From the NCBI RefSeq assembly GCF_039645965.1, contig NZ_CP147917.1, positions 62,001 to 126,000 on the forward strand: DNA of 64,000 bases. The letters run 5' to 3'. Of the stretch, positions 26,404-40,844 are shown in pieces; positions within the stretch are counted from its first letter, which is position 1; each line of letters begins with the position of its first letter. The translations under genes were made by a program, and so were the position numbers. The DNA comes from Sulfurimonas sp. HSL3-2. Lineage in GTDB: Bacteria > Campylobacterota > Campylobacteria > Campylobacterales > Sulfurimonadaceae. A model generated the notes under the pieces. The model worked only from the letters and a program-made list of their open reading frames with translations. It was not told the origin of the DNA and ran no database searches.

Positions 26404-26973
26404 ATGCCAAGAATAGAAAACGAAAAATTTTACAAAGCATCGCTAGAAAAGCATGGTCTTACATGTAAGGCACTGCATTGGAACAGTGAGCACAATCAAG
26501 AGATAAGGTTTAAAGTCCTGCTCTCTTTGCTCAAAGATGATATCTCTGCGTGCAGTATCGTAGATGTTGGATGTGGGTTCGGCGATCTCTACAGGTTCAT
26601 GAAGAAAAAACCGCTAAGTTATACAGGTATCGACGTGATGGATGAGATGGTTTTAGAAGCGCGTGCGAGAACCGGATGTGAGATCTTAAAACTCGATGCG
26701 TGTACGGATGAACTGCCTCTAGCGGATTATTACTTTTGCAGCGGGGCGATGAACATACTTCAAAAGTTCGAGACATACCAGTTTATACGCAACTGTTATA
26801 CTGCATCAAAAAAAGGGTTTATCTTTAACATCTTAGAAGGGGATGACGAATCTCTTGTTTATAACTACTTTAGAGAGAAAGAGATAAGAATAATCGCAGA
26901 TGAGCTCGGTGCAAAGGTCGAGATACAAAAAGGATATCTGCAAAAAGACATATCGATAGGGATGTATAAATAA
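26404..26973 (+). CDS. Class I SAM-dependent methyltransferase
   Basis: The 189-residue protein has motif I IVDVGCGFGDLYRF (about residue 52), motif II SYTGIDVMDEMVLEA (about 77) and a short C-terminal half, the small UbiE/COQ5-like fold. The substrate is unknown. Its stop codon overlaps the ATG of the asnB-type gene (TAATG), so the two proteins are made together; a joint pathway (amidotransfer plus methylation) is suggested but unproven. A perfect TTACATGTAA occurs in the coding sequence at 26459-26468. Confidence 0.82.
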   Translation: MPRIENEKFYKASLEKHGLTCKALHWNSEHNQEIRFKVLLSLLKDDISACSIVDVGCGFGDLYRFMKKKPLSYTGIDVMDEMVLEARARTGCEILKLDACTDELPLADYYFCSGAMNILQKFETYQFIRNCYTASKKGFIFNILEGDDESLVYNYFREKEIRIIADELGAKVEIQKGYLQKDISIGMYK

Positions 26974-36716: not shown

Positions 36717-36753
36717 TCTAACCTTTTACTTCTTCATTTTATTCAATAAACTA

Positions 36754-37183
36754 CTTTACATGTAAGGGTGTTCTCATACTTTTTTCCTCCGCAAAAAAAG
36801 TATGCAAAAAAGCTCGTGTCACGGTTGGATTTCTTCACGCCTTTCTTCGGTCGTTACAGCTAAAAATCAAAAACTCGGGCAAGCCCTCAAACAGTTTGAT
36901 TTTCCTACGCTTCCACTCGGTCAAAAAAGCTAAAATCCAAAGTGACACCAAGAGAACGCCGACCAAATTTCCCCGTTAGTTGCAACATCTGCAGAGCCAA
37001 GTGATAGTAAAGAAATGACGTAAAGAAAATGCAACTGTTTGAGTGAAACGAGTTTTGCATTTTTAGGAATGGATTTACTATCTCTTGGGAACTTGACAAA
37101 GTCAAGCTCGAAGCCGTTGCAAGAGCTTTTTGGTACTTTTTTGCGGAGAAAAAAGTACAGAGAGAAACGCTTTACATGTAAGC
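36754..37183. repeat. Inverted-repeat-bounded non-coding element (MITE-like or structured RNA)
   Basis: Both ends carry, in inverted orientation, a TTACATGTAA palindrome (36756-36765; 37172-37181), a GTTCTC-like spacer and a hairpin with a six-A/T run: ATACTTTTTT/AAAAAAGTAT (36776-36803) and GTACTTTTTT/AAAAAAGTAC (37133-37158). Both hairpins have CTCCGC-type loops in the same inverted sense. The interior holds a GTGTCAC...GTGACAC inverted pair (about 36817-36945), an imperfect direct repeat (ACGC...CGGTC...AGCTAAAA at about 36837 and 36907) and a CTTGAC-AAA-GTCAAG hairpin (37092-37106). No convincing gene lies inside and no transposase is present. It fills most of the 542-base gap between gltX and the nuclease-helicase gene. 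Confidence 0.6.
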
Positions 37184-37244
37184 ATGTTTTGTCATTTTTG
37201 AATAAATGACTATAATGTTTATTAAATAAAAGGTAATTAAGCTG

Positions 37245-40200
37245 ATGAAAAGAATAATTAAAAAAATTAGTGAATACAAAAGCTGGCAAGAATTAAAATT
37301 AAAGCTTATAGATACTCTTGGAAAAAAAGAAAAAGGTGATGTCTTTGAGTTAATAACCAAATACTTCTTACTAATTGATCCTGTATATCAGACAAAACTT
37401 AAAAATGTATGGCTATTAAATGAAGTTCCAAGTGATGTAAAAATATATTTACACTTACCAGATAATGATGAGGGCATAGATTTAGTTGCACAAACCAAAG
37501 AAAATGAGTATTGGGCTATACAATGTAAATATAGAACCGATGAAGAAAGTTCTATTAAAAGAGCTGACATTACTACATTCATAGATATAGCAAATACAAT
37601 ATGTAAAAATATTTCGCATAAATTAGTCTGTACTACTTCTAGTAAACAAAGTGATAAATTTGATAAACTTTATGATGATACTATTTCCTTTCTCTTAGCA
37701 GATACATGGAGTACTTTAAATGAAGAGTTTTTTGAGAAACTCAATGCTTATTTAGATAATCAAAAAATTATTTTTAAACCTTGGGTTCCGCTACCTCATC
37801 AGCAAAGAGCTATTGAAAATGCCTATAAGCATTATATTGAGGAAAATAACAATCGTGGCAAGCTCATTATGGCGTGTGGCAGTGGTAAAAGTTTAACTGC
37901 TTATTGGATAGCACAGAAACTTAGTGCGAGAAATATGCTTATTGCTGTACCAAGTTTAGCGCTCATAAAGCAAACATTGGAAGTGTGGACAAGAGAGAGT
38001 ACAGCTAACAATATTGATATTAACTGGTTGGCAGTTTGTAGTGATGACACGGTATCTCAAGATGACACCTTCATGGCAACTACAAAAGACTTAGGTATAA
38101 AGGTTTCAACCAATATAGAGTATATATCAAAGTGGCTAAGTAATACAACACATTATAATACAACAATCATTTTTACAACATATCAAAGTTCTGAAGTTAT
38201 TGCTAAAGCATCAAAAAGGGTAGATTTTGTCTTTGATTTTGGAATCATGGATGAAGCTCATAAAACAGCAGGATTAAAAGGTTCACTTTTTAGCCATTTA
38301 CTTTTTGATGAAAATATTTTTATTCGTAAAAGACTTTTTATGACTGCTACAGAGAGATATTATAAAAGTAGTAGTGATGAAATAGCTAGTATGGATGATA
38401 TTGATATTTACGGTGAGGATTTTGAAGTATTGTCATTTAAAGAAGCTCTTGAAAGTGATCCTCCAATTTTATGTGATTATAAGATCATTTCAATGATGGT
38501 AACTAAGCGAGAGATTGAAAAACTCATTGAAAAAAATACCTATGTGAAACCCAAAAATGAAAATTACACGAAAGAAGTTGAAGCAGAAATGTTGGCTTCT
38601 ACAGTTGCCTTACACAAAGCTATCAAAAAATATAATATTAAGCATACCATTTCTTTTCATAGCAGTATCGAAAGAGCAAAGTTTTTTCAATTACAAGAAA
38701 CTGCATTTAGAAAAAGTTTTAGTGAATACACTCACTTAGATACTTTCCATGTAAGTGGTGATACTCCAACGGCGAAAAGAAAAAAAGTTATTAATGAATT
38801 TGCAAACTCAGAAAACTCACTGATAACTAATGCACGATGTCTTACCGAAGGTGTGGATGTGCCAAATATAGATTGTATTTTATTTGCTGACCCTAAAAAT
38901 AGCACGGTTGACATCGTTCAAGCCGTTGGAAGAGCATTGCGATTATCCAAGGATAAAGAATTTGGATATGTTGTAGTTCCCGTTTTGATAGATGATGAAT
39001 ATATTAGTATTGAAGATATCAAAAACAAAAATTTTCAGTCCATTCTCACAATACTTAGAGCTTTGGCTTCTAGCGATGATAGGATAATTGATTATTTTGA
39101 AACAATTGAGAATAAAGATAGATCAAATAAGAGTAGATTGGTTAACTTTGATATTCCACTTGGATTAGGTATTGATATTAATGAATTTAACGAAGCAATC
39201 AAGCTTTCAATAATTCCTAAAATTAAAAATCTTAAATGGAGATTTTTTGAGGAAGCTAGAGAATTTGTGAGAAACTTGGGACTAAAAAACAACGAAGAAT
39301 GGAAACGTTATTGTCAAAATAAATTGATAAAAAAAGATTTAAAACCTAGTGATATTCCATCAAGTCCAAATTCAGTATATAAATTGCATGGATGGAATGG
39401 CATGAAGGACTGGTTAGGTACAACATATGATTTAAAGTATTTGCTTTTTGAGGAAGCGAGAGAATTCGCAAGAAGTTTGGGATTTAAATCTAAAAAAGAA
39501 TGGGACCAATATAAGCATTCTGAAATGGAAATTTCAAATATTCCATCAAATCCACATATTGTTTATTATAATAGTGGTTGGAAAGGCTGGCAAGATTGGC
39601 TTGGCTATTCGAGATTGGATAGATATCTTTCTTACGAAGAAGCATCACAATATGTACAAAGTATAGGTGTAAATTCTCGGGATAAGTGGAGAAGATTTTC
39701 AAAAGAAAAAAGACCAAGTAATATTCCTGCTCTACCTAATGAAATTTATAAACATAATGGTTGGATTGACTGGCAACATTTTTTTGGAACAGATAAATAT
39801 TCATATAAAGAAGCCAAAAAATTTGTCCATACATTAAATCTAACTACTTCGAAAGAATGGATCGATTATTGTCAAGGACAATATACAGACTTGCCTAAAA
39901 GACCTATCAAAATACCTTTAACGCCAACTGTTGCTTATGTTAAAGAATGGGGTGGCTGGGAAGATTGGTTAGGAAATGCAAAGTATTTGCCATTTGAGGA
40001 AGCTAGAGAATTTGTAAGAAAGTTAGGACTTAAAGGCCAAGTGGAATGGAAGGATTATTTTGCTGGTCGACTTTCTCATTTACCATCAAAACCAAATAAT
40101 ATCCCAACTGATCCAGGAAGAGTATATAGTGATAAATGGCAAGGTTTTGGAGACTGGGTTGGTACTGGTAGAAAACGACGGGCTAATAATACAAATGGCA

Positions 40201-40844
40201 ATGACGTTTGGTTACCTTATGAAGAAGCAAAAAAATTTGTTCATACATTACAATTAATAAGTTCAACGCAATGGCAACAATATATTAAGGAGAAACTTAA
40301 TGACTTACCAAGCAAGCCAGATAAGATTCCAAAACAACCTTGGTTTGTGTATAAAGATAGTGGTTGGAAAAATTGGAATGACTGGCTTGGAGAAAGTTCT
40401 AATAATAAAATAAGAACAAAAGTGCAAAATGCGCTTCCATTCGAAGAGGCAAGAGCATTTGTAAGAAGTTTAAAACTTAAAAATACCTATGAATGGAAAG
40501 CCTATAAAAAAGGTGAATTGGAAGGTTACAAATCAATTCCTGATAATATTCCAAAAACTCCATATAGTTATTATAAAGATTATGGCTGGATTGGAATGAA
40601 TGATTGGCTTGGCATATCTTCTATAAATAGAACAAGAATTCAAACATCAAAAAAAGTTTTGGCTTATGAAGATGCAAAAAAAATTGTGCATACGTTTGGT
40701 TTGAAAAACACTTATGAATGGCAAGATTATTGCAAAGGAAAATTAAAACATTTGCCTCCAAAGCCAAATAACATACCTGCTACACCATGGAATGTATATA
40801 AGAATAAAGGCTATATCAGTTTGTCAGATTGGTTAGGGAGCTAA
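37245..40844 (+). CDS. PD-(D/E)xK nuclease - SF2 helicase with eight C-terminal INT_rpt-like repeats
   Basis: A 1199-residue protein. Residues 20-150: Mrr/HsdR-like nuclease fold with D-x-G-I-D near 81-85 and QCK in YWAIQCKYR (about 94). Residues 180-570: SF2 helicase with Walker A ACGSGKS (about 209), DEAH in GIMDEAHKTAG, motif III MTATER and motif VI QAVGRALRLSKD. Residues 665-1199: eight 60-75-residue repeats of the form (F/Y)EEA-x2-FV-x2-L-x-L-x5-EW...IP-x2-P...Y-x4-GW-x3-DWLG. No methyltransferase or specificity gene is adjacent. The gene is more AT-rich in its codons than its neighbours, and a repeat element abuts it: signs of transfer. Candidate defence protein. Confidence 0.85.
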   Translation: MKRIIKKISEYKSWQELKLKLIDTLGKKEKGDVFELITKYFLLIDPVYQTKLKNVWLLNEVPSDVKIYLHLPDNDEGIDLVAQTKENEYWAIQCKYRTDEESSIKRADITTFIDIANTICKNISHKLVCTTSSKQSDKFDKLYDDTISFLLADTWSTLNEEFFEKLNAYLDNQKIIFKPWVPLPHQQRAIENAYKHYIEENNNRGKLIMACGSGKSLTAYWIAQKLSARNMLIAVPSLALIKQTLEVWTRESTANNIDINWLAVCSDDTVSQDDTFMATTKDLGIKVSTNIEYISKWLSNTTHYNTTIIFTTYQSSEVIAKASKRVDFVFDFGIMDEAHKTAGLKGSLFSHLLFDENIFIRKRLFMTATERYYKSSSDEIASMDDIDIYGEDFEVLSFKEALESDPPILCDYKIISMMVTKREIEKLIEKNTYVKPKNENYTKEVEAEMLASTVALHKAIKKYNIKHTISFHSSIERAKFFQLQETAFRKSFSEYTHLDTFHVSGDTPTAKRKKVINEFANSENSLITNARCLTEGVDVPNIDCILFADPKNSTVDIVQAVGRALRLSKDKEFGYVVVPVLIDDEYISIEDIKNKNFQSILTILRALASSDDRIIDYFETIENKDRSNKSRLVNFDIPLGLGIDINEFNEAIKLSIIPKIKNLKWRFFEEAREFVRNLGLKNNEEWKRYCQNKLIKKDLKPSDIPSSPNSVYKLHGWNGMKDWLGTTYDLKYLLFEEAREFARSLGFKSKKEWDQYKHSEMEISNIPSNPHIVYYNSGWKGWQDWLGYSRLDRYLSYEEASQYVQSIGVNSRDKWRRFSKEKRPSNIPALPNEIYKHNGWIDWQHFFGTDKYSYKEAKKFVHTLNLTTSKEWIDYCQGQYTDLPKRPIKIPLTPTVAYVKEWGGWEDWLGNAKYLPFEEAREFVRKLGLKGQVEWKDYFAGRLSHLPSKPNNIPTDPGRVYSDKWQGFGDWVGTGRKRRANNTNGNDVWLPYEEAKKFVHTLQLISSTQWQQYIKEKLNDLPSKPDKIPKQPWFVYKDSGWKNWNDWLGESSNNKIRTKVQNALPFEEARAFVRSLKLKNTYEWKAYKKGELEGYKSIPDNIPKTPYSYYKDYGWIGMNDWLGISSINRTRIQTSKKVLAYEDAKKIVHTFGLKNTYEWQDYCKGKLKHLPPKPNNIPATPWNVYKNKGYISLSDWLGS
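39235..40841 (+). repeat. Eight tandem ~200-bp coding repeats (INT_rpt-like)
   Basis: The repeats begin at about 39235, 39436, 39622, 39796, 39976, 40204, 40429 and 40660. Each ends in a WLG-, WVG- or FFG-type motif; the third (HFFG) and fifth (DWVG) deviate. Nucleotide identity between copies is moderate, so the array is old rather than a fresh slippage product. The unit resembles the Pfam phage-integrase repeat unit from memory. Confidence 0.75.

Follow-up and report, generated by a model that had tools for sequence, protein, structure and literature searches.

A putative methylation-independent antiviral enzyme of Sulfurimonas with a type ISP-like nuclease-motor and eight INT_rpt-type repeats

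Closest described systems

Type ISP restriction enzymes are single polypeptides in which an Mrr nuclease and a superfamily 2 (SF2) translocase form a conserved motor that carries a variable C-terminal specificity part, and they spare self DNA through methylation of their own sites. Between LlaGI and LlaBIII the first half is conserved, with differences in the target recognition domain, TRD, about 52% identical (PMC4872093). For these enzymes translocation and subsequent nuclease cleavage on collision of the motors have been measured (PMC4666363, PMC7049714). Here, we describe a related protein, designated W, that is the product of the open reading frame at 37245-40844 in a stretch of 64,000 nucleotides from Sulfurimonas sp. 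HSL3-2 (contig NZ_CP147917.1, positions 62,001 to 126,000; in the following the window). W is likewise a single polypeptide, homologous to the type ISP enzymes over about 600 residues and with a variable C-terminal part apparently serving specificity, but it lacks the coupler, the gamma-class N6-adenine methyltransferase and the Type_ISP_C/TRD region, shows eight tandem repeats at their place and has a motor that falls into a clade of its own. It is probably a solitary, methylation-independent, ISP-like translocating antiviral nuclease in which the repeat array would act as an exchangeable target reader. We report its architecture and evolution, and from these we infer the mechanism.

A nearly identical plan is found in Mrr-SF2 helicases with Helicase-associated (HA) repeats (PF03457). 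Their representative from Rhodococcus (WP_064689746) comprises about 1200 residues with Mrr_cat_2, an SF2 helicase and eight C-terminal repeats of about 65 residues, all eight detected as HA by Pfam, and is 32% identical to W over residues 20-668. Its repeats belong to a different family, since PF03457 does not match W in Pfam and our profile of INT_rpt-type repeats does not detect HA. In the open-access literature searched, no description of the architecture of W and none of the function of either protein was found, although accounts elsewhere are possible. An SF2 motor with the methyltransferase missing, repeats replacing the reading head and a cousin bearing HA repeats together pose the question whether tandem repeats are interchangeable target readers.

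Nuclease and motor

The gene and the first parts of its product are as follows.

37245-40844, + strand: Mrr-SF2-INT_rpt array protein, 1199 residues; open frame, motor under purifying selection in comparison with L002
37245-37739, + strand: N-terminal Mrr-type (PD-(D/E)xK) nuclease, residues 1-165, with GID...QCK; Pfam, alignment with LlaBIII, motif in four orthologues
37740-39164, + strand: SF2 helicase-like translocase motor, residues 166-640; ResIII, Helicase_C, matches to LlaBIII and LlaGI, motor tree
39165-39233, + strand: connector of motor and array, residues 641-663, the place where an ISP coupler would start; no match of ISP_coupler (PF22240)

The initial annotation of this DNA had proposed the open frame, its nuclease and helicase motifs and eight C-terminal repeats, and all of them were recovered. 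The frame is open on the forward strand and the motifs GIDLVA..AIQCK (residue 77), ACGSGKS (210), DEAH (336), MTATER (366) and QAVGRALR (559) are kept in the four orthologues from other genomes of the family (in G181 MTATERRYK was read directly from the sequence). Pfam reports Mrr_cat_2 with E=1.7e-18 (residues 44-142), ResIII with 7.9e-15 and Helicase_C with 8e-14. The type IIG/ISP restriction-methyltransferase model of PADLOC matches residues 26-630 (E=2.8e-96), and the closest solved relatives are LlaBIII (4xqk; 1.1e-65 over residues 26-625) and LlaGI (5ffj; 1.3e-52). By homology the motor is thus of the type ISP/Mrr_cat_2 kind and not HsdR, so that the earlier description as an Mrr/HsdR-like nuclease-helicase was right as to its restriction type but not as to HsdR. 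Beyond the motor the similarity to type ISP enzymes ends: ISP_coupler (PF22240), N6_Mtase, Eco57I and Type_ISP_C/TRD (PF18135) have no Pfam match in W and the methyltransferase motif NPPY was not found, whereas ISP_coupler, N6_Mtase, Type_ISP_C and NPPY were all detected in a true type ISP enzyme from Variovorax used as control.

In a phylogeny of the motor domains a single clade (support 99/100) unites the five motors that bear repeats, separately from the sampled ISP enzymes. HA-repeat helicases fall on the side of the repeat-bearing motors at a weaker split (88/98), their long branches making this placement unsure. In genome G493 (locus L104) a frame of 936 residues encodes an SF2 helicase that belongs to this motor superfamily but has another repeat of about 70 residues, whose consensus, drawn by eye, reads ATxEFVxxxGYEKL...YKGFxIGxFR; it is possibly a third or an HA-like type of reader.

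As claimed initially, no methyltransferase is fused or adjacent to W. A classical type I/III restriction-modification system was considered and ruled out, as no HsdM/HsdS or Mod gene lies nearby, and the only methyltransferase seen in these surroundings, at 26404-26973 in the window, matches general small methyltransferase domains only. The search of the whole host genome covered PF01555, PF00145 and PF02384, with Dam and Eco57I families outside its range; PF01555 and PF00145 gave no match and PF02384 a single marginal one (22.8 bits, a frame of 238 residues). These three main families of DNA methyltransferases are therefore essentially absent from the host and, with none fused or adjacent and the genome search nearly empty, W apparently has no partner methyltransferase for self-protection.

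The repeat array

The remainder of the protein is occupied by the repeats.

39234-39422, + strand: repeat 1, residues 664-726, kept between orthologues; repeat profile, 76% identity to L002
39435-39608, + strand: repeat 2, residues 731-788; repeat profile
39621-39791, + strand: repeat 3, residues 793-849, variable; repeat profile, 33% to L002 (30 aligned residues)
39792-39977, + strand: repeat 4, residues 850-911, variable; repeat profile, 47% to L002
39981-40166, + strand: repeat 5, residues 913-974, variable, followed by the basic linker GRKRR; repeat profile, 55% to L002, isoelectric point (pI) of the linker 11.7
40206-40394, + strand: repeat 6, residues 988-1050, conserved, with a counterpart in proteins at the DruH position; repeat profile, 81% to L002
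40428-40616, + strand: repeat 7, residues 1062-1124, modelled by AlphaFold2; repeat profile, mean predicted local distance difference test (pLDDT) 94.6
40653-40841, + strand: repeat 8, residues 1137-1199; repeat profile

Our repeat profile finds exactly eight units across residues 664-1199 with independent E-values of 1e-19 to 6e-29; it was built partly from units of W itself, but independent plasmid and phage proteins also score. Throughout the host genome it gives eight matches, all inside this gene, and a chance origin of the eight-repeat pattern is excluded. The resemblance to PF14882 (INT_rpt) that had been suggested for the repeats is below the cut-off of that family (E=0.019, 15.6 bits against a gathering cut-off of 26.5), and among 28 single repeats only four match PF14882 (best E=7e-4). 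What stands is kinship at superfamily level: the repeat profile detects arrays of VPA1269-family, Deinococcus and phage proteins, and those of the VPA1269 family and of Deinococcus score above the PF14882 cut-off (4.5e-52 and 7.6e-18). Because one profile also recognises strong PF14882 proteins, the repeats of W form a branch of the INT_rpt superfamily that has diverged. PF14882 itself had no match in any of 397 genomes of the phylum, controls included, and the purpose-built profile was used instead. A profile of 28 rows was too diverse for a pattern scan; a scan of viral contigs with the array found nothing.

The structure of a single repeat, the prediction of which had been recommended at the outset, was obtained for repeat 7 with 14 other repeats as alignment, and the confident model comprises four short helices. 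A full-length model built from two sequences reached a mean pLDDT of 34 and was not used. Repeats were compared singly, as alignments of triplets went out of register. Among viral models the repeat fold is matched best by a protein of 309 residues, a length that fits the repeat protein of the Xanthomonas jumbo phage XacN1, and by giant-virus SF2 helicases, those from Klosneuvirus and, at lower strength, from Bodo saltans virus and Terrestrivirus; with template modelling scores by query of 0.66-0.79 and Foldseek E-values of at least 0.04 these matches are suggestive only. The array carries a charge of +27 and has a basic pI of 9.5, against slightly acidic values for the nuclease and motor (motor pI 5.9). 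A match to Exonuc_X-T_C above the Pfam cut-off covers 41 residues of repeat 1, recurs weakly in other repeats and was rejected as chance likeness.

Distribution and evolution

Gene composition is foreign, with 31.7% GC against 40.8% in the window and 21% at third codon positions against 46-52% in gltX and metH. The gene stands alone between gltX and orf104/metH, which agrees with its first description as AT-rich and isolated among housekeeping genes. In genome G006 the corresponding site is empty: gltX, the repeat element that also flanks the gene of W, orf104 and metH follow one another without interruption, and the stops of gltX and orf104 lie 503 bp apart instead of 4226 bp. Neither occupation of the same locus in all relatives nor ordinary composition, which would have spoken against a defence gene, was thus found. 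INT_rpt-type repeats occur in 9 of the 228 genomes of the family (about 4%), and the complete nuclease-motor-array protein in one of eight genomes of the genus. Four other genomes of the family contain orthologues with six or seven repeats each (six to eight with W included), and in each of the five genomes the gene is solitary and at a different locus. Neighbours of the orthologues, named partly by reading, are serS and a rhodanese gene; flhB and a PD-T4-5-like gene; acetyltransferase-like and ParE-like genes; and a CAP12/Pycsar TIR effector with a transposase. Patchiness, a mobile locus and a defence neighbourhood are all features of anti-phage distribution, the last being present in some orthologues and not at the window copy. 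These observations support horizontal acquisition and patchy distribution of the gene.

Motor and array have evolved in different ways. Between W and the orthologue at L002 the motors are 87% identical and repeats 3-5 merely 33-55%, while repeats 1, 6 and 7 remain close. Nonsynonymous and synonymous substitution rates (dN and dS) are 0.07-0.08 and 0.7-0.9 for nuclease and motor, and dN reaches 0.46-0.60 in repeats 3-5; by these rates the motor is under purifying selection. The pair G113 and G181 shows the same picture, with motors 77% identical and repeats 2-6 mostly below 50%. Repeats 3 and 4 of L002 are nearer to those of G113 (61 and 70%) than to those of W, although the motors of L002 and G113 share 71% identity and those of W and L002 87%. 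The arrays look mosaic, recombination being judged from few sequences and without formal test. That the motor is conserved and the array diversifies resembles the evolution of specificity, as far as the sequences tell.

Related repeats in other proteins

Repeats of the same kind occur in Druantia III-like systems. In three Sulfuricurvum-like genomes (L054, L055, L056) and one genome of another family (L096) a protein of about 1190 residues with four N-terminal repeats overlaps the start of the DruE3 gene.

L054:8503-16924: Druantia III-like pair, then HsdS- and HsdM-like genes
L055:6670-15103: the same arrangement
L056:8280-16698: the same arrangement
L096:8541-16992: the same arrangement

The DruE3 match reaches 1e-197 in L054, and DruE of L055, L056 and L096 was assigned by likeness. 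By its position before DruE3 the repeat protein would be the counterpart of DruH, although no PADLOC model, DruH included, matches it. In L055 a CD-NTase and a patatin effector are encoded in the vicinity. These Druantia III-like systems share with W repeats of one kind, four of them in the DruH-position protein, but Druantia type III (DruH-DruE) is a two-gene system lacking the Mrr nuclease, whereas the gene of W is solitary in five genomes. In the DruH-position proteins an ordered repeat pair with its basic linker matches repeats 5-6 of the nuclease-motor proteins (up to 65% and 54-57%), repeat 6 of W being 56-57% identical to their repeat 4. This shared pair suggests either exchange of an array block between the two kinds of protein or a common target. 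The partner of DruE on a Roseomonas plasmid was rejected as a further carrier: it contains no such repeats, and its sequence does not significantly match the DruH-position protein of Sulfuricurvum.

Other carriers belong to mobile elements and viruses. The INT_rpt (PF14882) proteins comprise tyrosine recombinases of the VPA1269/Integrase_2 type, which stand beside gmtY and gmtX (gamma-mobile-trios), and small proteins (L081, L084, L080) that adjoin Tus-like terminus-binding and conjugation genes on plasmids of Shewanella and Pseudoalteromonas. They have in common with W the superfamily and tandem units of about 55-60 residues, and differ in their partner, which is an Integrase_2 recombinase or none, while the repeats of W stay below the PF14882 cut-off. 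A 485-kb phage encodes a protein (L021:7209-8990) with five INT_rpt-type repeats and a centre read as HNH-like, for which Pfam has no match. Smaller repeat proteins are found in the jumbo phages XacN1 and RAS14 (L022, L023), and an SF2 helicase of 976 residues (L097:9033-11963, - strand) carries two INT_rpt-type repeats near its C-terminus and no nuclease. Presence of the repeats in a Druantia III-like system, in recombinases and in giant-virus helicases suggests a single shared recognition module that hosts and viruses alike use in their conflict.

Putative function and alternatives

In the mechanism that we favour the basic array would dock on a target in invading DNA, be it a sequence, a structural feature of the DNA or a nucleoprotein site. 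This contact would free the ATP-driven motor for translocation, and the Mrr nuclease would cut at collision or stall of motors as in LlaGI and LlaBIII. Since self-protection would have to work with no partner methyltransferase, the target would be scarce or hidden in the host, or present only during infection; how solitary nucleases avoid killing their host is a question raised by this protein in general. Repeats swapped, added or lost in the middle of the array would re-aim the enzyme.

Several points weigh against this explanation. No defence genes adjoin the window copy, which lies outside any defence island, and neither PADLOC nor NCBIfam has a model for the architecture. The repeat fold has no significant match in the PDB (Foldseek, VIA-align), a weak negative given its small size, and for this reason there is no known fold from which DNA binding could be deduced. 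DruH, finally, is thought to sense late phage proteins (PMC13192584), and this speaks for a protein as ligand of the array. The initial annotation had proposed a DNA- or protein-reading array; a probable target-reading role is supported by the lines of reasoning given above, and the target may be DNA or protein.

According to the protein-binding alternative the array captures a structural or replication protein of the phage and thereby permits the nuclease-motor to act on DNA close by, in the way proposed for DruH. The related four-repeat array at the N-terminus of the protein directly before DruE3 and the supposed role of DruH as infection sensor speak for such a sensor, and diversification in the middle of the array would fit an arms race over protein recognition equally well. 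We take this alternative seriously but nevertheless regard it as rather unlikely, because the repeats are also attached to partners that act on DNA and sense nothing (Integrase_2 recombinases, the HNH-like phage protein, Tus-adjacent proteins, giant-virus helicases), the array is strongly basic and the Sulfuricurvum protein has no DruH score in PADLOC.

W might also be a type IV-like enzyme directed at methylated or hypermodified DNA, a target missing from an unmodified host genome. An Mrr-type nuclease devoid of a methyltransferase and the near absence of the three methyltransferase families from the host would agree with this, as would weak matches of PADLOC mREase_IV (1e-6) in the motor. 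The latter are, however, confined to the helicase core that is shared anyway, Pfam found none of the modified-base readers SRA, EVE and YTH in W, and eight diversifying repeats are not what is expected of a modified-base reader, so that we consider this improbable. A housekeeping helicase-nuclease of DNA repair or recombination, at which the weak matches of RadD, Hef and XPB models to the helicase core and the defence-free surroundings of the window copy could hint, is most improbable for a gene that is absent from seven of eight genomes of the genus and from most of the family, stands at a different site every time and has foreign composition and a fast-evolving array.

The favoured explanation, an ISP-like nuclease with an exchangeable target reader, can be carried further, although the following extension is speculative and we hold it to be unlikely. 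INT_rpt arrays might constitute a general exchangeable recognition code, each repeat of about 60 residues specifying a defined part of the target, much as is conceivable for TALE or HA-type repeats. Blocks of repeats would then be shuffled among unrelated effectors such as ISP-like motors, DruH-type sensors, recombinases and phage endonucleases, giving rise to programmable restriction independent of methylation. If the repeats read DNA unit by unit, a new scaffold for programmable binding could be made from them.

Upstream element and a repeat remnant

One further feature flanks the gene.

36749-37190, strand not assigned: multicopy repeat element, intergenic and lying upstream of the gene, whose inverted ends are imperfect; copies in the genome, inverted arms, also at G006/L074

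The inverted ends lie at 36777-36798 and 37137-37157, and a core of about 200 bp recurs at about five other places of the genome; the element is possibly a miniature inverted-repeat transposable element (MITE)-like sequence. The repeat element noticed initially beside the gene is therefore real and multicopy, but it was likely at the site before the gene, since it is also present at the gene-free site of G006/L074. This rules it out as carrier of the gene, and it is probably part of the pre-existing site and not of the system. At another locus (L060, G062:C5:18038-18145) an open frame of 54 residues between unrelated genes matches the second half of a repeat and is probably what remains of an array gene that has been lost.

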